Positions 5,670 through 13,921 of a stretch of DNA of 64,000 bases are shown here, piece by piece. The notes beneath the pieces are model-generated. The model ran no database searches. It was not told the origin of the DNA and worked only from the letters and a program-made list of their open reading frames with translations. Each line of letters opens with the position of its first letter. The first letter of the stretch is position 1. The DNA comes from Desulfobacterales bacterium HSG16. Its GTDB lineage: Bacteria; Desulfobacterota; Desulfobacteria; Desulfobacterales; HSG16. The stretch spans positions 1 to 64,000 of the forward strand of contig JAUCGE010000005.1 in NCBI GenBank assembly GCA_030377965.1, in the 5' to 3' direction. Both the position numbers and the translations under genes were made by a program.

Positions 5670-6055
5670 GAAGCGGATTACAAAACCTGTGACTGGACAT
5701 GATAATTGATGAATGGTTTTTCAAATTTTTTGATGGATCGAGTGTGCGGATGAGAACCCCTCGTCGTCGAGAAGTACCGGAACACTCTGTACTTGCAGGC
5801 AAATCCCATGTTCACGATATTTGATGAAAGGAAGGCATAAAACCTCACATACTGTGATCAAAATCTTGGGATTTCCCATCATTTATTATGGTCAGGCACA
5901 TGATAACCGAAAATTGACCCACCCTTCCGGTACAAGAAAGGTGATAGCTTGGCAGATTCCGAAGCACCACCACTTCCGTTGATGCTCCTTGCTCCCCGGC
6001 GTTGAACACCATCGGCAATTTGACACCGCCATACAAATCAGATACCTATGGATTT
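5670..6055. repeat. gap with leader repeat R1, copy a (about 5901-6075)
   Basis: No gene is supported between the RND pump and the TPR gene. From about 5901 the sequence is a repeat seen again at 7808-7926 and 10003-10098: a block around CCGGTACAAGAAAGGTGATA, then CACTTCCGTTGATGCTCCTT, then a stretch reaching the ATG of the TPR gene. Copies a and b share the part that includes the start codon and ATGATTCTGGAAAA; copies a and c share the first part. The repeat is a leader module that was duplicated together with the genes behind it. The first 230 bases (5670-5900) show nothing recognisable. Confidence 0.7.
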
Positions 6056-7546
6056 ATGAGTGATGATTCTGGAAAAAACGTTATACGAGGGAAGCAAATT
6101 CAGGGGCCAGTTCAGACAGAATCCGTCCAGACAATCCATCAACATTTCGGCGTTTCAGAGGAGAAATTCCAGGCGCTATCCGTGGAACATGGTGTTACGC
6201 AGATGGCCTTGGCCAGTTTCTTCAAAATCTTGGAGCAACAGAATGTTTCGCTTGTGGATTTGGACAGCAAACTTCGAGAAGTTGCCGAACATTACAAAGA
6301 ATTGCAGCGGAAATTAACGGTTTTCCAGTCTGATGATCCTGATGTTATGGAACTAAAGAAAGCTGCAAAGGAATCCTTGGATAACGGAGATTTTGAAACT
6401 GCTGAAGACCTGATCAATCAGGCTAAAGAGAAGGATCTTGAATCCGCAAAGCGGTTACAAGCTGTCGCAAATAAGCGTTTCCTGTCAGCCGCTGAGTCAG
6501 CCGCTGAAAATGGTGAACTGAAGAAAACTCAATTGAAATATAGGGAAGCAGCCGAATATTTCAAAGAAGCGGCTGACTTGGTTCCGCAAGGTGAAGAGCT
6601 TGTCCGAGGCAGATACCTGGATGCGTGTGGAACTGCTTTTCAGGATGCAGGGATGTACGCCGAAGCACAAGGACCTTTTGAAAGGGCTTTGGAAATACGG
6701 GAAAGTGAACTACCGGAAGATGATGAATATGTAGCCACCAGCCTTAACAACTTGGGGTTGCTTTATGATAATCAAGGCAAGTACCCCGAAGCCGAGCCGC
6801 TGTATAAGCGTGCGTTGGCTATCTGGGAGCAAGTCTTAGGGCCTGAGCATCCGGATGTAGCCACCAGCCTTCACAACTTAGCGGCGCTTTATTATAATCA
6901 AGGCAAGTACGCCGAAGCCGAGCCGCTGTATAAGCGTGCGTTGGCTATCTGGGAGCAAGTCTTAGGGCCTGAGCATCCGCATGTAGCGCAAAGCCTCAAC
7001 AACTTGGGGTTGCTTTATGATAATCAAGGCAAGTATCCCGAAGCCGAGCCGCTGTATAAGCGTGCGTTGGCTATCCGGGAGCAAGTCTTAGGGCCTGAGC
7101 ATCCGGATGTAGCCAGCAGCCTCAACAACTTGGGGTTGCTTTATTATAATCAAGGCAAGTATCCCGAAGCCGAGCCGCTGTATAAACGTGCGTTGGCTAT
7201 CCGGGAGCAAGTCTTAGGGCCTGAGCATTCGGATGTAGCCAACAGCCTCAACAACTTGGCGGGGCTTTATCGTAATCAAGGCAAGTACCCCGAAGCCGAG
7301 CCGCTGTATAAGCGTGCGTTGGCTATCCGGGAGCAAGTCTTAGGGCCTGAGCATCCGGATGTAGCCAACAGCCTCAACAACTTGGCGGGGCTTTATTATA
7401 ATCAAGGCAAGTACCCCGAAGCCGAGCCGCTGTATAAACGGGCTTATGACATCTTTCTGAAGAAACTCGGATCTGCCCATCCGAGTACGAAGACCGTCAA
7501 GGCGAACTACGATGACATGCTCAAGAAGTTTGCTGAGAAGCCTTAA
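6056..7546 (+). CDS. TPR-repeat protein with N-terminal RHIM-like motif
   Basis: A 496-residue cytoplasmic protein. Residues 12-31 carry GKQIQGPVQTESVQTIHQHF, a version of the motif found in the next three genes (see findings). Residues 35-220 are helical and charged with irregular TPR-like units. Residues 226-477 are six near-identical 42-residue TPRs of the kinesin-light-chain type, with core SLNNLGLLYDNQGKYPEAEP. I chose the ATG at 6056 because the decayed copy of this leader upstream of the next gene (7907) keeps an ATG at the same place; a TTG at 6002 is possible. Its build, signalling motif plus repeat scaffold without an NTPase, suggests a receptor or adaptor. Ligand and function are unknown. 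Confidence 0.85.
   Translation: MSDDSGKNVIRGKQIQGPVQTESVQTIHQHFGVSEEKFQALSVEHGVTQMALASFFKILEQQNVSLVDLDSKLREVAEHYKELQRKLTVFQSDDPDVMELKKAAKESLDNGDFETAEDLINQAKEKDLESAKRLQAVANKRFLSAAESAAENGELKKTQLKYREAAEYFKEAADLVPQGEELVRGRYLDACGTAFQDAGMYAEAQGPFERALEIRESELPEDDEYVATSLNNLGLLYDNQGKYPEAEPLYKRALAIWEQVLGPEHPDVATSLHNLAALYYNQGKYAEAEPLYKRALAIWEQVLGPEHPHVAQSLNNLGLLYDNQGKYPEAEPLYKRALAIREQVLGPEHPDVASSLNNLGLLYYNQGKYPEAEPLYKRALAIREQVLGPEHSDVANSLNNLAGLYRNQGKYPEAEPLYKRALAIREQVLGPEHPDVANSLNNLAGLYYNQGKYPEAEPLYKRAYDIFLKKLGSAHPSTKTVKANYDDMLKKFAEKP
6731..7486 (+). repeat. six tandem 126-bp repeats encoding TPRs
   Basis: Six direct repeats of exactly 126 bp (42 codons) start at 6731, 6857, 6983, 7109, 7235 and 7361. 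The DNA is nearly identical between copies, including third codon positions, so the array is recent or homogenised by recombination. Unit number is likely to vary between strains. The last unit diverges at its end (RAYDIFLKKLGSAHPST). Confidence 0.9.
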
Positions 7547-7906
7547 ACCACGGTCAAGGCTGTAATCTGGATGGCATTGGCGGCAAAGATGAGTCTTTTC
7601 TTTTAGCGCCGCAGCAGCGGACATATTTCGAAAAACGGTGATCAGCGCTATGGAGCTAAAGCGTTATAGCGCTATAGATCTTTAAAGCAAAGCGCTCCAA
7701 CCTGCCCTGGGCGGTTCTCCTGTTCCTATTAGCAAAGAAATTGCTAATGCTCAGATATACGGTATCAGCGGCTTGCTGGTTGCGGGTTCCGTGCCAGCAT
7801 CAATGCCGATCCGAACACCGCCACTTCCGTCGATGCTCCTTGCTCTCGGCGTTGAACACCATCGGCAGTTTGACACCCGCCATACAAATCAGATACCTAT
7901 GTATTC
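7547..7906. repeat. gap with repeat R2 copy a (7645-7821) and R1 copy b (7808-7926)
   Basis: No gene is supported. R2 runs from GCGCTATGGAGC, through TGCCCTGGGCGGTTCTCCTG and TATTAGCAAAGAAATTGCT, to ATCCGAACACCGCC. It recurs at 9833-9999. Read in one frame both copies give a similar peptide (PISKEIA[N/D]AQ[I/M]YGI), so R2 may be a coding remnant of unknown origin. The 12-bp palindrome TATAGCGCTATA lies near its start. R1 copy b follows and runs into a dead start codon at 7907. Confidence 0.65.
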
Positions 7907-7939
7907 ATGAACGATGATTCTGGAAAATGTTGTATGTGA
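7907..7939 (+). pseudogene. 11-codon stub of the TPR gene start
   Basis: ATG AAC GAT GAT TCT GGA AAA matches the first seven codons of the TPR gene at 6056 with one substitution. It then runs into a stop (peptide MNDDSGKCCM). It is a decayed copy of the TPR gene 5' end left by duplication of the leader. It lies upstream of the small helical-protein gene and is probably not functional. Confidence 0.6.
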
Positions 7940-8009
7940 AGGTAAGGTTCAAGGAATATCAGGTCAGTTTTTATATTTAAATTCAACAATTCAATTTGGA
8001 GGTACATCA

Positions 8010-8399
8010 ATGGACCCAATCAATGTAATAACAACGGCACTTGCAACCGGTGCAGGAGCAGCGTTAAAAAGCACGGCAGAAAAGGCTGTAAAAGAGACTT
8101 ATGACGGATTAAAATTTTTGATTCAGCGTTGTTTCAAGGAAAAGGAGAACACTCAAGGGGATATGATCCTGCAAAGCCATGAACAGGACCCCACAGTATG
8201 GGCAAAACCTCTTGAAGATGCTTTGGTTAAAGCCGATGTCGATAAGAACGAAGATATTCTCAAGGCCGCACAGAAATTAATGGAGATGATCGAACCGAAA
8301 CAGGCTGCAATGGGCAAGTTTAATATTCAAGCAAATAATGTCACAGGTGTTGTCCAAGCTGAAAAGATCGATAATCTTACACAAACTTTCGGTAAATAA
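8010..8399 (+). CDS. small helical protein with C-terminal RHIM-like motif (Bell-like)
   Basis: A 129-residue protein. The ATG at 8010 has a strong ribosome-binding site (GGAGG, 7 bases upstream); the longer frame back to 7914 covers decayed leader. Residues 1-100 are predicted alpha-helical, with an Ala/Thr/Gly-rich first helix (MDPINVITTALATGAGAALK) and a central segment YDGLKFLIQRCF. The C-terminus (about 103-129) reads NNVTGVVQAEKIDNLTQTFG, matching the motif shared by the neighbouring TPR, TIR and kinase proteins. A small helical domain followed by a C-terminal amyloid-type motif is the plan of the bacterial Bell proteins paired with receptors carrying the same motif. By that analogy it would be a membrane-acting effector, which is inference. 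Confidence 0.75.
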   Translation: MDPINVITTALATGAGAALKSTAEKAVKETYDGLKFLIQRCFKEKENTQGDMILQSHEQDPTVWAKPLEDALVKADVDKNEDILKAAQKLMEMIEPKQAAMGKFNIQANNVTGVVQAEKIDNLTQTFGK

Positions 8400-8412: not shown

Positions 8413-8530
8413 ATAGAGAGATGAAACCGCTCCGGACGCGAACCAGAAGCGGTTTCAAGAACATCAACAAACGAAAGGATCTTACTTTAAATGGCCGATG
8501 ATGTCAAAGTGTTCATATCATATGCCGGTG
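8413..8530 (+). repeat. repeat R3 copy a: hairpin leader plus TIR gene start
   Basis: This 118-bp block recurs at 10117-10230. It contains a hairpin (GAAACCGCT ... AGCGGTTTC, 8422-8456) and about 35 bp later the start of the TIR gene with its first 13 codons. The hairpin has no T-run, so it may shape the leader mRNA or end the previous transcript weakly. Confidence 0.75.
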
Positions 8531-9825
8531 AGGATTACGAGACAGCGAAGAAGCTTTATGATGATCTGAAGGATGGCGGGGTTACACCTTGGATTGATAA
8601 GGTTGATCTATTGCCTGGTCAAAGATGGAAGCCAGCCATTACCAAAGCCATAAAGCAATCTCGGTTTTTCTTAGCCCTTCTGTCTTCTCGTTCAGTCTCA
8701 GAAAAAGGTTTTTTCCATGCGGAGCTAAAGAAGGCTCTTGAAGTCTTTGACGAGTTCTCGGAAGAAGAGATTTTTCTTATTCCCCTGTTGATCGATGATT
8801 GTGAAATCCCTGAAAGACTGGAGCATATCAATTGTGTCGAACTGTTTCCAGATTATGATAAAACTGTGAGCAGCATTCTTCGTGTTCTCCAGGCGGATCA
8901 GAAGGTTGAAGCATCGAAACCGGTTCCTGAAAAGCCGAAGCAGGCCAGCAAGCCGGAAGCCAGCCAAGCCGATCCATCGAAAGTCTCGACAAACACAGCC
9001 CAGGGCAATACCCTGCAAGGTGTTATCCAAGCAGGAACTGTTCAGCAGGTGGTGCAGCACTTTCATGGAACGGCAGCGCCTGACTCCGATGATGCAAAGG
9101 CTGTTCCAGAGAAGCCGAGACCTGACAAAAAGCCGGTCGATCAACCAACCTTTGATCAGTCAAAGGAGAAAGAAGAATCGGTCATTGAGACAATCCCTGA
9201 CGATGCCGATCACCAGAAGTCTTCTATCTCAGCCCCAGTACAGGTTGAGAAAAACTGGCGCTCTACTCTCTTAATCTTGATCAGTACATTGGTTATTCTT
9301 GGTTTGGTCTGGTGGAAAATGCCTGGATCTGATGGAAGAGGTGAGAGGAACACTACAACTACGAAGCCAAAATCAGTAACAACCTCTACCATGCCCGGGG
9401 TAAAACCAGAGGCAAAAGAAATAGTCCGTGATGGGCATTTCATCGCCTATGATGATGGTACGGTGCTGGATGAGAAAACCGGGCTGATGTGGGCTGTGGA
9501 GGATAACGGGCAGGACATCGACTGGAAGAACGCAAAGCTGTATTGCGAGGAGTATCAGGGCGGTGGCTATTCCGACTGGAGACTGCCGACTATCAAGGAA
9601 CTGAAAGGGCTTTATGATAGAAACAAAAGCTACCCGATGGATTGTGTAACAGCTTACGAGGTGCATTTAACTCGACTTATACATGTTTCATGCTGGAGGG
9701 TATGGTCATCGAAAACAAGTGGTTCGTCCGCTGCCTTCTTCGGTTTCTTTAACGGCAACGAGTACCAGTTTGCTCAGTCGAGTTCCGGCTACTTCCGGGT
9801 TTTGCCGGTGCGCGCAGGCAATTGA
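8491..9825 (+). CDS. TIR-domain transmembrane protein with DUF1566 domain
   Basis: A 444-residue protein with domains in this order. TIR (about 4-128): starts KVFISYAGEDYETAKKL, contains WIDKVDLLPGQRW, and has a candidate catalytic glutamate at 78 in FFHAELKKAL. A Lys/Pro-rich linker follows. The shared motif QGNTLQGVIQAGTVQQVVQHF is at 171-191. One membrane helix lies at about 260-276. The DUF1566 domain (about 312-444) has TGLMWA, SDWRLPTIKEL and the end motif RVLPVRAGN. TIR domains of this type often cleave NAD+ when oligomerised. The layout predicts a cytoplasmic TIR and an external lectin-like sensor. The C-terminal codons show a hypermutation-like pattern against the kinase gene. The ligand is unknown. 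Confidence 0.88.
   Translation: MADDVKVFISYAGEDYETAKKLYDDLKDGGVTPWIDKVDLLPGQRWKPAITKAIKQSRFFLALLSSRSVSEKGFFHAELKKALEVFDEFSEEEIFLIPLLIDDCEIPERLEHINCVELFPDYDKTVSSILRVLQADQKVEASKPVPEKPKQASKPEASQADPSKVSTNTAQGNTLQGVIQAGTVQQVVQHFHGTAAPDSDDAKAVPEKPRPDKKPVDQPTFDQSKEKEESVIETIPDDADHQKSSISAPVQVEKNWRSTLLILISTLVILGLVWWKMPGSDGRGERNTTTTKPKSVTTSTMPGVKPEAKEIVRDGHFIAYDDGTVLDEKTGLMWAVEDNGQDIDWKNAKLYCEEYQGGGYSDWRLPTIKELKGLYDRNKSYPMDCVTAYEVHLTRLIHVSCWRVWSSKTSGSSAAFFGFFNGNEYQFAQSSSGYFRVLPVRAGN
9736..9795 (+). other. candidate DGR variable region in the TIR protein
   Basis: Codons 416-435. Aligned with 12937-12996 in the kinase gene, ten of twenty codons differ. All 15 base differences are at positions 1 or 2 and every changed codon keeps the same T or C at position 3. 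Twelve of the 15 sites have A in one of the copies. The conserved GTTTTGCCGGTGCGC follows directly, where an initiation-of-mutagenic-homing site would be expected. Confidence 0.7.
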
Positions 9826-9832
9826 ACCTTTG

Positions 9833-9999
9833 GCGCTATAGAGCTAAATCGCTATAGATCTTTAACGTTAAGAGTTTTCAAGTCTGCCCTGGGCGGTTCT
9901 CCTGCTCCTATTAGCAAAGAAATTGCTGATGCTCAAATGTACGGTATTATTGGCTTGCTGGCTGCGGCTTGTACTGGCATGGGTGATCCGAACACCGCC
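9833..9999. repeat. repeat R2 copy b
   Basis: Second copy of the R2 block (first at 7645-7821), directly after the TIR gene. It again starts with GCGCTATAGAGC, keeps TGCCCTGGGCGGTTCTCCTG, and ends at ATCCGAACACCGCC. The two copies are clearly homologous but have diverged, so this duplication is older than the DUF1566 C-terminal one. Confidence 0.75.
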
Positions 10000-10002
10000 T
10001 GT

Positions 10003-10098
10003 TGTGATAACGGAAAATTGCCCCACCTTCCGGTACAAGAAAGGTGATAGCTTGGCAGGTTCCGAACCACCGCCACTTCCGACGATGCTCCTTGCTCC
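10003..10098. repeat. repeat R1 copy c
   Basis: Third copy of the leader repeat, from GATAACGGAAAATTG through CCGGTACAAGAAAGGTGATA to GATGCTCCTTGCTCC. It stops at a junction with R3 copy b (10117), so the leader here is a mosaic of two module ends. Confidence 0.75.
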
Positions 10099-10116
10099 GT
10101 AAGACTTCCCGTGATA

Positions 10117-10230
10117 GAAAGGCGAAACCGCTCCCGGACGCGAACCAGAAGCGGTTTCAAGGACATAAACAAACAAGGAGAGCGTACTGTAAATGGCGGA
10201 TGATGTCAAAGTGTTCATCTCGTATGCAGG
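10117..10230 (+). repeat. repeat R3 copy b
   Basis: Second copy of the hairpin leader and TIR gene start (first at 8413-8530). The hairpin arms are at 10124-10132 and 10150-10158, followed by a good ribosome-binding site (AAGGAG near 10175). Similarity ends after the 13th codon of the TIR frame. Confidence 0.8.
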
Positions 10231-10252
10231 CAAGAAAGCCGCTGCGAGATGA
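10193..10252 (+). pseudogene. 19-codon TIR gene stub, coupled to the kinase start
   Basis: The stub encodes MADDVKVFISYAGKKAAAR. Its first 13 residues are identical to the start of the TIR protein at 8491, and the rest is missing. Its stop codon overlaps the kinase start as ATGA (10249-10252). It keeps the ribosome-binding site of the TIR gene, so it may now act as a leader peptide that delivers ribosomes to the kinase gene by termination-reinitiation. Confidence 0.8.
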
Positions 10253-13026
10253 TCGAACCCGGAAAAGAGATTTTCAAGGATTACATCCTGAAAAAACATA
10301 TAGGAGAAGGAGGCTTTGGCCGGGTTTACCTCGTAAAGAGCAAGATCGGCAAGGCTTTTGCTCTGAAGATCCTGTTCAAAGGCGCAGTCGGGGAGAAGCG
10401 AGGGGTTGAATCGGTAATCAAAATCCGCTCCAACCGCTTGGTCAACGTGCTGGATTTCGGAGAAACGGTTGATGGTGATTTCTGCGTTCTCATGGAGTAT
10501 GTGCGAGATACTTTTGCCCCGGTACTGGAAAAGAAGCTGGAAGAGAAAACCGCCCGTCATTATTTCCGGGAAATCCTTGAAGGGCTGAAGGTACTTGAGA
10601 AGAACAACATTATCCACAGAGACATCAAGCCATCCAACCTTTTCATCCACGAACAGCTTGTGAAAATCGGGGATTTCGGAACTGCCAAGTACACCTCTGG
10701 GGAAACCTCTACAAAGACAAGGCTGTTGGGTACGATCAAGTATTGCGCTCCAGAATGCTTTCAAAACTATTTTGCTTTTTCCGTGGATCAATGGGCTGCC
10801 AGCGTTATCTTTTACCGCATGTTGACCGGCAAATTTCCTTTTGAAGGTGATAATTACGCTGCTATCATGGGTGCTTTGATGATGAAAGCCCCGGATCTTT
10901 CCATCGTTCCTGAAAAATATGTGCCTTTCTTCCAACTATGCTTTGAGAAAGAAACAGGGAATCGCTTTTCCGATACCCAGGAGATGATCCGGGCATTTGA
11001 TAAAACTGAGTCTGTTCAGCAGAACATTCAGGAATACGAAACCCGCATCAAGGTCTTGGAAGGCCAGCTTGAGCAAGCCAAGGAGCAATTAGACAAGCCC
11101 CGAATCCAAGGTGATTATATCAAGATCGAAGGTGGAAGAGACGTATCTTTAGCCAAAGACCAGGCTGAAATTGCGATTGCCGATTCCAGCCTTGAGATAG
11201 CAGAACTGAGGAAGGAGATAGAACGGCTCAAAGCACAGAACAATGGTCAAGCCGGAAAGACAGTAGCCCAGGGTAACAATCTGCAAGGGGTTATCCAGGC
11301 AGGAACTGTTCAGAAGGTCGAGCAGCACTTTCATGCAGCACCTGGTTCCGATGGAGCAAAGGTTGTTCCAGAGAAGCAGAAAGAAAGAACTCCTGATAAA
11401 GCCAAACCAGTCAAGAAGCCGGTTGCAAAAAAGCCAGAGTCCGAAGCTCCGCCAGCGGAAACGAAGCCGGTCACTGAATCCAACGCCCAGGAGATTGAGA
11501 GAGACGGCAGTCGGTTTATCGCCAAAAATGATGGAACTGTATCAGATACAAAGACTGGGCTGATGTGGGCTGCAAAAGATAATGGGTATCCTATCAATTG
11601 GCAAGATGCAAAAAAATATTGTAAGGCATATCGTGGAGACAACGAGTATTCGAATTGGAGGCTGCCGACGATTAGGGAGCTGGAAGAGCTTTATAAAGCA
11701 AAAACCAAATCGATTAAACTAACCAGTCCACATCAATGGATATGGTCATCAGAAATTAAAAAAGACGGCTCCCTCGCCGCTCGCTTCACTTTTATGATGG
11801 GTGGATGTTACTGGGATGATTGTCCGGATTACTCCACCAGTAGACGGGTTTTGCCGGTGCGTGGGGGCAATTTAAAGATGTCGGTCGATGAACAGAAAAC
11901 TCTAACACCAGACAGCCTGAAACCGATCAAAAAGCCAGTTTCCAAAGGGCCATTGGTCAAAGCCTCGCCAGCGGAAACGAAGCCTGTCTCAGAATCGAAA
12001 GCCCACGAGATCAAGAGAGACGGAAGATTCATCGCCTATAATAACGGTACGGTGCTGGATGAGAACACTGGGCTTATGTGGGCGGAGAAGGATAACGGGA
12101 AAGACATCAAATGGAAGGATGCAAAACGGTATTGCGAGAGTTATCGCGGGGGTGAGCATTCGGACTGGAGGCTGCCAACTCTTGACGAATTGGAATGGCT
12201 TTATGTAGCAAAAATCAAGTTGATTAAGATAACCAGAGTGTTTTTTGTATGGAAATGGGTATGGTCTTCCGAATTTAAAGAAACCAAGGATGGTTCCCGT
12301 GTAGCTTACTTCACTTTTGGAACTGGCGGCAGGTACTGGCTTCATCCAGACGACTACAACCGTAGCGTTTTGCCAGTGCGCGAGGGGAATTTTAAAAAAA
12401 AGGTCGATCAACCAACCCCTGATAAGCCTAAGAAGGTCAAGGAAAAACTGAATTCTTTTGGCTCAGGGTCAATAAGTGGTAAAAAAAATCGGCTTCGAGT
12501 TCTCTCTATCTTAATCAGTATATTGGTTGTTCTTGGTCTGGTCTGGTGGAAAATGCCTAAAATTGATGAAGAGAAGCCAATCACTATCACTAAGAAGCCA
12601 AAATCAGTAACAACCTCTACCATGCCCGGGGTAAAACCAGGGGTAAAAGAAATAGTCCGTGATGGGCATTTCATCGCCTATGATGATGGTACGGTGCTGG
12701 ATGAGAAAACCGGGCTGATGTGGGCTGTGGAGGATAACGGGCAGGACATCGACTGGAAGAACGCAAAGCTGTATTGCGAGGAGTATCAGGGCGGTGGCTA
12801 TTCCGACTGGAGACTGCCGACTATCAAGGATCTGAAAGGACTTTATGATGCTGGTATAAGAAAACCTCAAGAAGGAATAATCAGTATTTCTGGCTGGGGA
12901 GTATGGTCATCAGAAACAAGTGGTTCGTCCGCTGCCTACTTCAATTTCGATGACGGCAACGAGTACCAGAGTACTCAGTCGGATTCCAACGACTACCGTG
13001 TTTTGCCGGTGCGCGGGCGCAATTGA
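10249..13026 (+). CDS. Ser/Thr protein kinase with RHIM-like motif and three DUF1566 domains
   Basis: A 925-residue protein. The kinase domain (about 10-270) looks active: Gly loop GEGGFG 19-24, Lys40, HRD 123-125, DFG 142-144, APE 167-169. A coiled coil spans about 270-335. The shared motif GNNLQGVIQAGTVQKVEQHF is at 342-361. DUF1566 copies 1 (about 415-541) and 2 (about 588-714) come before a single membrane helix (749-768); copy 3 (about 802-925) follows it. Only copy 3 should therefore be external, and copies 1 and 2 cytoplasmic. Copy 3 is nearly identical in DNA to the TIR protein's domain except in the candidate variable region. The start overlaps the stop of the TIR stub. It is probably a receptor kinase for the same signalling route; targets unknown. 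Confidence 0.88.
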   Translation: MIEPGKEIFKDYILKKHIGEGGFGRVYLVKSKIGKAFALKILFKGAVGEKRGVESVIKIRSNRLVNVLDFGETVDGDFCVLMEYVRDTFAPVLEKKLEEKTARHYFREILEGLKVLEKNNIIHRDIKPSNLFIHEQLVKIGDFGTAKYTSGETSTKTRLLGTIKYCAPECFQNYFAFSVDQWAASVIFYRMLTGKFPFEGDNYAAIMGALMMKAPDLSIVPEKYVPFFQLCFEKETGNRFSDTQEMIRAFDKTESVQQNIQEYETRIKVLEGQLEQAKEQLDKPRIQGDYIKIEGGRDVSLAKDQAEIAIADSSLEIAELRKEIERLKAQNNGQAGKTVAQGNNLQGVIQAGTVQKVEQHFHAAPGSDGAKVVPEKQKERTPDKAKPVKKPVAKKPESEAPPAETKPVTESNAQEIERDGSRFIAKNDGTVSDTKTGLMWAAKDNGYPINWQDAKKYCKAYRGDNEYSNWRLPTIRELEELYKAKTKSIKLTSPHQWIWSSEIKKDGSLAARFTFMMGGCYWDDCPDYSTSRRVLPVRGGNLKMSVDEQKTLTPDSLKPIKKPVSKGPLVKASPAETKPVSESKAHEIKRDGRFIAYNNGTVLDENTGLMWAEKDNGKDIKWKDAKRYCESYRGGEHSDWRLPTLDELEWLYVAKIKLIKITRVFFVWKWVWSSEFKETKDGSRVAYFTFGTGGRYWLHPDDYNRSVLPVREGNFKKKVDQPTPDKPKKVKEKLNSFGSGSISGKKNRLRVLSILISILVVLGLVWWKMPKIDEEKPITITKKPKSVTTSTMPGVKPGVKEIVRDGHFIAYDDGTVLDEKTGLMWAVEDNGQDIDWKNAKLYCEEYQGGGYSDWRLPTIKDLKGLYDAGIRKPQEGIISISGWGVWSSETSGSSAAYFNFDDGNEYQSTQSDSNDYRVLPVRGRN
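12937..12996 (+). other. candidate DGR variable region in the kinase
   Basis: Codons 897-916, the partner of 9736-9795. Changed codons read, TIR/kinase: TTC/TAC, GGT/AAT, TTT/GAT, AAC/GAC, TTT/AGT, GCT/ACT, AGT/GAT, GGC/AAC, TAC/GAC, TTC/TAC. All are NNY in both copies, as expected when AAY codons of a template are randomised at adenines. The intervening ten codons are identical. Confidence 0.7.
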
Positions 13027-13039
13027 ACATTTGATCATT

Positions 13040-13921
13040 GTGCGCCAAGCAAGCTTGGCGCTTCTTATAGGGTGAAAGTCCCAATCAAGTAAGGCTTAAC
13101 CAGCCACTTGTACCGAGTGTTGCGTGTGTGGCGGAGGTTATTGTAATTCAACAAAATTATGGAGGTGAAAAAAAAGCCGAACAAAACATGCGAAGCGTAT
13201 ACAGGGAAGCATGCAGACCACAGGGGAGACCGCACTCCCTGAAGCCTAATGCAGCCTCGTCAAAATAATTTCAAAACGGTCGGCGACAGTCTAATGACAC
13301 TGGAAGCCAATACAATGGAATCGTTAGCTCCTTTGTAAGGCTTGCCTTGGCACTGGACAGGCAAGATTCCGGAGGGGCAGTCGTGGTCATCATAGGGCGT
13401 GGTATGTATGCAGAGAAGCGGTAGAAACTTGGGATATCCCATGAATTCCCGAACAAGGAACGGCGTGCCGGTCTACCTCGGGTAGGGATGCCAAACTGAA
13501 ATGGGGGAGGTTACCGATGGTTTATGGGGAGTCGGATTGTTTCATAGTACTCCGAGGGCGGGAAAGCCGTCTACCTGGGAAAGGGGGCAACGGAATGCGT
13601 AGTTCTCAAAGGAAACATGTGCCGAACGGTGCTGGGTCGGAAAAACACATGCAAACCTCACTGGGAAGAATAGCGAACAAGGCAAACGTGAATACGAGAT
13701 GGATCTTGAAGATAATGTCAGTGATCTTGTCGAGCGTTTAAAAAGTGGACGATACCGGGCAAAACTTATCAGGAGGAAAAATATTCCAAAAAGGAATGGG
13801 AAAATTCGTCCTTTAAGGAGACCAGTCACAGAAGACAAGCTTTTGCAGACGGCATGCAGCGAGATTCTCATGGCGATCTTTGAACAGAATTTTCTACCCA
13901 ATAGTTTTGCTTACAGGAGAT
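13040..13921 (+). mobile_element. 5' fragment of a group II intron
   Basis: It begins 14 bases after the kinase stop with GTGCGCC and the domain I sequence CTTCTTATAGGGTGAAAGTC, typical of bacterial group II intron 5' ends. Structured non-coding sequence follows to about 13,600. The remains of the intron-encoded protein then run to 13,921, where intron sequence stops abruptly 7 bases before the tolC-type start codon. Domains IV (end), V and VI are absent, so it cannot splice or move. Confidence 0.85.

Follow-up and report, generated by a model that had tools for sequence, protein, structure and literature searches.

Thiohalocapsa PB-PSB1 and other multicellular bacteria carry several diversity-generating retroelements (DGRs) per genome, some of them at loci with disrupted reverse transcriptase (RT) genes, and the remote targets in Thiohalocapsa match their template at all non-adenine sites, which was read as action in trans (Dore et al. 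2024, PMC10907252). In cyanobacterial DGRs, kinases, orthocaspases and TIR proteins serve as variable proteins (Vallota-Eastman et al. 2020, PMC7517822), and in Bordetella phage BPP-1 homing is efficient only when a hairpin follows the target (Guo et al. 2011, PMC3240598). DGRs that act remotely on several targets, with TIR, kinase and caspase proteins among them, have been published before, and the domain pairings described below have precedents too; the clade of the RT considered here includes a TIR-Lcl_C target in a KSB1 bacterium and a caspase-Lcl_C target in a deltaproteobacterium.

The present locus is a pair of neighboring receptor genes in 64,000 nt of Desulfobacterales bacterium HSG16 (contig JAUCGE010000005.1, positions 1 to 64,000; hereafter the window), very probably diversified by a DGR on another contig, C26. 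As in Thiohalocapsa, there are several DGRs, remote targets, a disrupted RT, and TIR, kinase and caspase-like proteins that end in a lectin domain; unlike there, the varied domain is Lcl_C (DUF1566), borne here by TIR and kinase receptors with a single predicted membrane passage, the RT has a C-terminal MutS-I-like domain, and its defect is a clean internal deletion in frame (Dore et al. 2024, PMC10907252). The cyanobacterial systems share the kinase, caspase and TIR targets and the variable regions outside the DGR cassette, but belong to a different phylum, and the likeness is drawn by protein type, not by sequence (Vallota-Eastman et al. 2020, PMC7517822). With BPP-1 the locus shares the order Avd gene, template repeat (TR) and RT gene, adenine mutagenesis, a GC-rich 3' end of the variable region and a hairpin downstream of targets, here an 8-bp stem with a 4-nt loop behind all targets of a second DGR in the genome. 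It differs in being chromosomal and multi-target, and in its hairpin, which has the loop CGTG rather than GRNA, lies about 50 nt from the stop codon (4–34 bp from the variable region in BPP-1) and is missing behind the window targets (Guo et al. 2011, PMC3240598).

Methods

The source genome is a fragmented assembly of 4.8 Mb in 408 contigs, 80 per cent complete. The template was sought with the kinase variable region as query against the window's own genome, and five 107-nt variable regions were compared with the C26 template at 31 A sites and 76 non-A sites each. The Lcl_C domain was modeled from 30 sequences (pLDDT 89.5); a nine-sequence model was poor (pLDDT 43) and was discarded. A scan of genome contigs with the truncated C26 RT as a single protein found no relative, whereas an alignment-based scan did recover relatives, and the exact 25-nt 3' end pattern had zero matches in viral contigs.

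Template and variable regions

An earlier note on the window had compared positions 9736–9795 of the TIR gene with 12937–12996 of the kinase gene and read both genes as DGR targets. Its counts are exact: 15 bases differ in 10 of 20 codons, codon position 3 is untouched, all ten changed codons preserve a third-position pyrimidine, and A is present in one of the two copies at 12 of the 15 sites. The near-identity that it reported further upstream is real as well, amounting to 97 per cent over 268 nt. The block that it outlined does lie inside a hypervariable region, although the true extent is larger (Table 1). For this pair alone, the probability that 15 random changes would all miss third positions is 7.6e-4, which is only suggestive, and an outside test was therefore required.

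The kinase query gave strong matches on C26 (three) and on contig C349 (one), plus two in the window. A non-coding template with AAC or AAT codons, next to an Avd gene and a DGR-type RT, had been predicted; such a template is found in the same genome, with 11 of these codons at places that vary in the other copies, and both genes adjoin it on C26. The absence of a template or a DGR RT from the genome, which would have spoken against DGR targets, is thus not what was found, and the mutator does lie outside the window, as had been stated. Fourteen of the 15 differing sites are template adenines in a stretch where A occupies 26 of 60 sites (P = 6e-6), the sole exception being GCT/ACT at 9772/12973, which is non-adenine in the template. 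The C26 template settles the question left open by the window pair.

Five targets have matching 107-nt variable regions, namely the window TIR and kinase genes, two caspase proteins on C26 (C26a and C26c) and one on C349. Pooled, 74 of 155 A sites differ from the template versus 7 of 380 other sites (P = 2e-38). The copies outside the window differ at 17/31 (C26a), 16/31 (C26c) and 16/31 (C349) A sites, and each at 0/76 other sites. Beyond the 107 nt, the domains are 67–71 per cent identical between window and non-window targets and 69–84 per cent among the non-window targets; because the flanks agree so loosely, the perfect non-A agreement is attributable to copying and not to recent descent. 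The only third-position A of the core, in a TCA codon, varies too. Being synonymous, this change fits a mutator directed at adenines and would not arise from selection on amino acids. Template and targets have the 3' end CGGGTTTTGCCGGTGCGCGCGGGCAA in common, with slight drift in the window copies, and by analogy with BPP-1 the terminal 26 nt of the TIR variable region would occupy the position of the initiation-of-mutagenic-homing (IMH) site. Lectin domains on contigs C45 and C102 and the internal ones of the kinase were considered as current targets and rejected: their 3' end is template-like, but their non-A sites deviate from the template.

Table 1. Coordinates of the receptor genes, their variable regions and associated elements (window positions unless a contig or locus is named).
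Feature	Position	Strand	Description
TPR protein gene (6002-7546) and small protein gene (7914-8399)	6002..8399	+	QGxxLQGVIQAG motif common with both receptors
TIR receptor gene (target 1)	8491..9825	+	TIR aa 7-126; QGxxLQGVIQAG motif; one hydrophobic helix aa 259-277; C-terminal Lcl_C/DUF1566 aa 323-441
Upstream half of last Lcl_C domain, TIR gene	9351..9618	+	97% identical to 12582-12849 in kinase gene
TIR variable region	9715..9821	+	differs from template at 16/31 A sites, 2/76 other sites
Invariant GC-rich 3' end of TIR variable region, CGGGTTTTGCCGGTGCGCGCAGGCAA	9796..9821	+	one base off template
Ser/Thr protein kinase gene (target 2)	10249..13026	+	kinase aa 12-241 with HRD and DFG; three Lcl_C domains
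Kinase variable region	12916..13022	+	differs from template at 9/31 A sites, 5/76 other sites
3' end of kinase variable region (putative IMH position)	12997..13022	+	three drifted non-A bases at positions 84, 101, 103 of the 107-nt region
3'-truncated group II intron remnant	13040..13917	+	starts 14 nt after kinase stop codon
Avd gene	C26:7558-7962		upstream of template; Pfam bAvd E 1.8e-13; NCBIfam DivGenRetAVD E 2.5e-14, below the model's cut-off
Template repeat	C26:8103-8209		intergenic, between Avd gene and RT gene; not a target gene's 3' end
RT gene	C26:8210-9133		start codon abuts template; DGR clade, 307 aa
C12 DGR	L033, about 3.7-8.6 kb of reversed locus	reverse	

Receptor architecture and proposed mechanism

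The TIR protein matches Pfam TIR_2 (E 1.3e-24) and Lcl_C (E 3.5e-19), and the hydropathy of its helix peaks at 2.02; the kinase matches Pkinase (E 3.2e-42) and, in three stretches, Lcl_C, with one hydrophobic helix from aa 749 (hydropathy 2.36) ahead of the last of these. In both, the single predicted transmembrane helix stands between the TIR or kinase domain and the variable Lcl_C domain, so that each protein probably crosses the membrane once, with its TIR or kinase domain in the cytoplasm and the variable lectin tip outside. An Lcl_C domain forms the terminus of all five targets, and the three non-window proteins begin with a signal-peptide-like segment, behind which lies a caspase domain bearing His and Cys motifs; PEGA repeats are also present in two of them. 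PADLOC gave only generic TIR and kinase matches for the window receptors.

The modeled Lcl_C domain of the TIR protein matches many C-type lectins and the C-terminal domain of Legionella pneumophila Lcl (PDB 8q4e), which is of the same family (profile E 1e-11) and the same fold (Foldseek E 1.5e-5), the solved protein being an adhesin domain. The varied residues are accordingly modeled onto a domain of C-type-lectin fold.

We infer, with a probability of roughly 0.93, that the two window receptors are remote variable proteins of the C26 DGR, which would reach them by homing in trans and diversify what are presumably membrane-spanning sensors. The template, the five variable regions, the adenine specificity, the Avd gene, the RT homology, the domain content and the predicted fold are the observed part of this explanation. 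RNA from the C26 template would be reverse-transcribed with errors at adenines, and the cDNA would take the place of the target's 3' end, beginning at the conserved GTTTTGCCGGTGCGC terminus and reaching upstream roughly as far as the ACAAGTGGTTCG start. The eleven AAY codons of the template would then correspond to varied residues on the C-terminal lectin-fold domain; adenine changes in AAY codons never yield a stop. With the tip probably exposed beyond the cytoplasmic membrane, the receptors would pass signals inward via their TIR or kinase domain, and variation would alter what the cell senses. If so, the case shows cleanly how one template can write to five receptor or effector genes spread over at least three contigs. 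Among these, the TIR and kinase receptors, single-pass proteins tipped by a hypervariable lectin domain, would be the bacterial counterpart, in their layout, of receptors whose ligand domains vary somatically.

Reverse transcriptases of the genome

The Avd-TR-RT gene order on C26 is that of a DGR, and together with the template these genes support the interpretation of both window genes as DGR targets; the adjacent RT, however, is internally deleted. Its residues 7–183 are 54 per cent identical to the intact RT on contig C366 and its last ~115 aa match the MutS-I-like C-terminus of that protein, while the intervening ~200 aa, from motif 4 onward, have dropped out with the frame preserved; in the C366 RT they hold the thumb as well as IGNLTSQ and YVDD. 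Among the RT relatives whose RT frame was identified by motif scan, all keep YxDD and nearly all the SQ motif, and the C26 RT alone has neither IGxxxSQ nor YxDD. To judge by these motifs, the C26 RT as assembled cannot polymerize. A deletion shared with a relative of the same taxonomic order (63 per cent identical) was considered and dropped, as the RT there is truncated only where its contig stops. TR/VR-like pairs with adenine-biased mismatches accompany 56 of 80 RT relatives in named genomes.

Two other DGRs are present. The one on C366 (DGR-2) is complete, with an Avd gene, a template (L036:6347-6450), an RT bearing IGNLTSQ and YVDD, and four variable regions, three of which show 0/72 non-A changes. 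Its fourth target (L036:3787-5739) has a 1-nt insertion in the variable region that leads to a frame shift and an early stop, possibly a failed homing product. The third DGR, on C12, has an HRDC accessory gene, an intact RT with both motifs and two caspase-PEGA-FGE targets on opposite strands, whose mismatches fall at template A in 17/19 and 17/20 cases. Most other RTs in the genome are without DGR motif 4. Conceivably, the C26 template is reverse-transcribed in trans by the C366 RT, given the 54 per cent identity of the shared part and an architecture that matches in its Avd and MutS-like components. This would keep template and targets matched despite the lost polymerase core, and the truncated RT-MutS-like protein would have been retained in an accessory role; we consider this unlikely, and it raises the question of whether the RT of one DGR can serve the template of another.

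Present state of the window copies

All seven non-A differences among the five targets are confined to the two window copies. One change, C to T at position 57, is present in both, as would be expected if an earlier version of the template had served for the two. A hairpin element, GGGTGCAGGGG..TAGCGACA, has exactly six copies in the 4.8 Mb. Each follows a DGR target (C26a, C26c or one of the four DGR-2 targets) at a distance of about 50 nt, and the element is thus common to two different DGRs. In a search of the whole genome it was absent behind the window TIR, window kinase and C349 targets. A downstream hairpin is not universally defining for DGRs. Behind the kinase gene, the site where other targets carry the hairpin is occupied by the group II intron remnant (Rfam RF02005 at 13075–13397, 84.7 bits), whose 5' end was placed by a GTGCGCC motif that we take to mark it, and whose ORF, 73 per cent identical to a group II RT on contig C382, ends abruptly after about 93 aa.

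The window copies are most likely older or dormant targets, because the non-A changes are theirs alone, the hairpin is absent, the C26 RT is without its catalytic core in the assembly and a truncated intron sits just past the kinase stop codon; updating of these copies may have ceased. The genome would then illustrate how targets may retire, by non-adenine drift, hairpin absence and a group II intron behind the gene. A somewhat less probable account is that both copies are fully active today, in which case the RT deletion would come from misassembly or from a minority allele, and a slightly older template alone would account for the non-A differences. Perfect non-A agreement in the C26 and C349 targets does imply recent homing, the C349 target being hairpin-free like the window copies, the surviving RT and MutS-like portions share one reading frame, and long reads have revealed intact RT alleles where an assembly had broken ones (Dore et al. 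2024, PMC10907252). Against present activity, the deletion preserves the frame and sits mid-contig, the genome yielded no further fragment of the lost part, and the window copies have no hairpin behind them and, for the kinase, an intron 14 nt downstream.

Other sources of the variation

Whatever the present state of the window copies, a DGR origin of their variation must be weighed against gene conversion or recombination that shuffled variants among paralogous lectin domains with no adenine mutagenesis, which we regard as very improbable. Such exchange does have a place here: the 97 per cent identity upstream of the variable regions stems from duplication or gene conversion, probably the latter, and not from homing, and the TIR and C26a copies have 11 of 14 doubly changed bases in common, more than other pairs. 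It offers no way, however, to an adenine-only spectrum of differences from a non-coding template, and the same spectrum recurs in the two other template and variable-region sets of the genome. Positive selection on a ligand-binding surface, which without any mutator would have acted on the first two bases of codons for surface residues in two duplicated genes, could draw on the recently duplicated or converted domain half and on the fact that position 1–2 changes alter amino acids, but is already refuted by the match to a genomic template in which 14 of the 15 sites are adenines, by five genes on three contigs that follow this template (three with 0/228 non-A changes) and by the varying synonymous A of TCA.

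The surrounding gene cluster

Both receptors and the two genes upstream of them contain a motif resembling AQGNxLQGVIQAGTVQxVxQHF (6062–6163, 8304–8393, 8986–9078 and 11251–11346), and a profile search found no copy elsewhere in the genome. The TPR and small protein genes probably belong to the same signaling cluster as the receptors. The motif presumably resembles the RHIM-like amyloid signaling motifs of bacteria. Intergenic segments downstream of the TPR gene (7648–7788) and of the TIR gene (9828–9970) are duplicates, 78–90 per cent identical, which suggests that the cluster grew by local duplication. Within the TPR protein gene itself, positions 6729–7450 consist of near-identical 126-nt (42-aa) repeats, about 91 per cent identical to one another.
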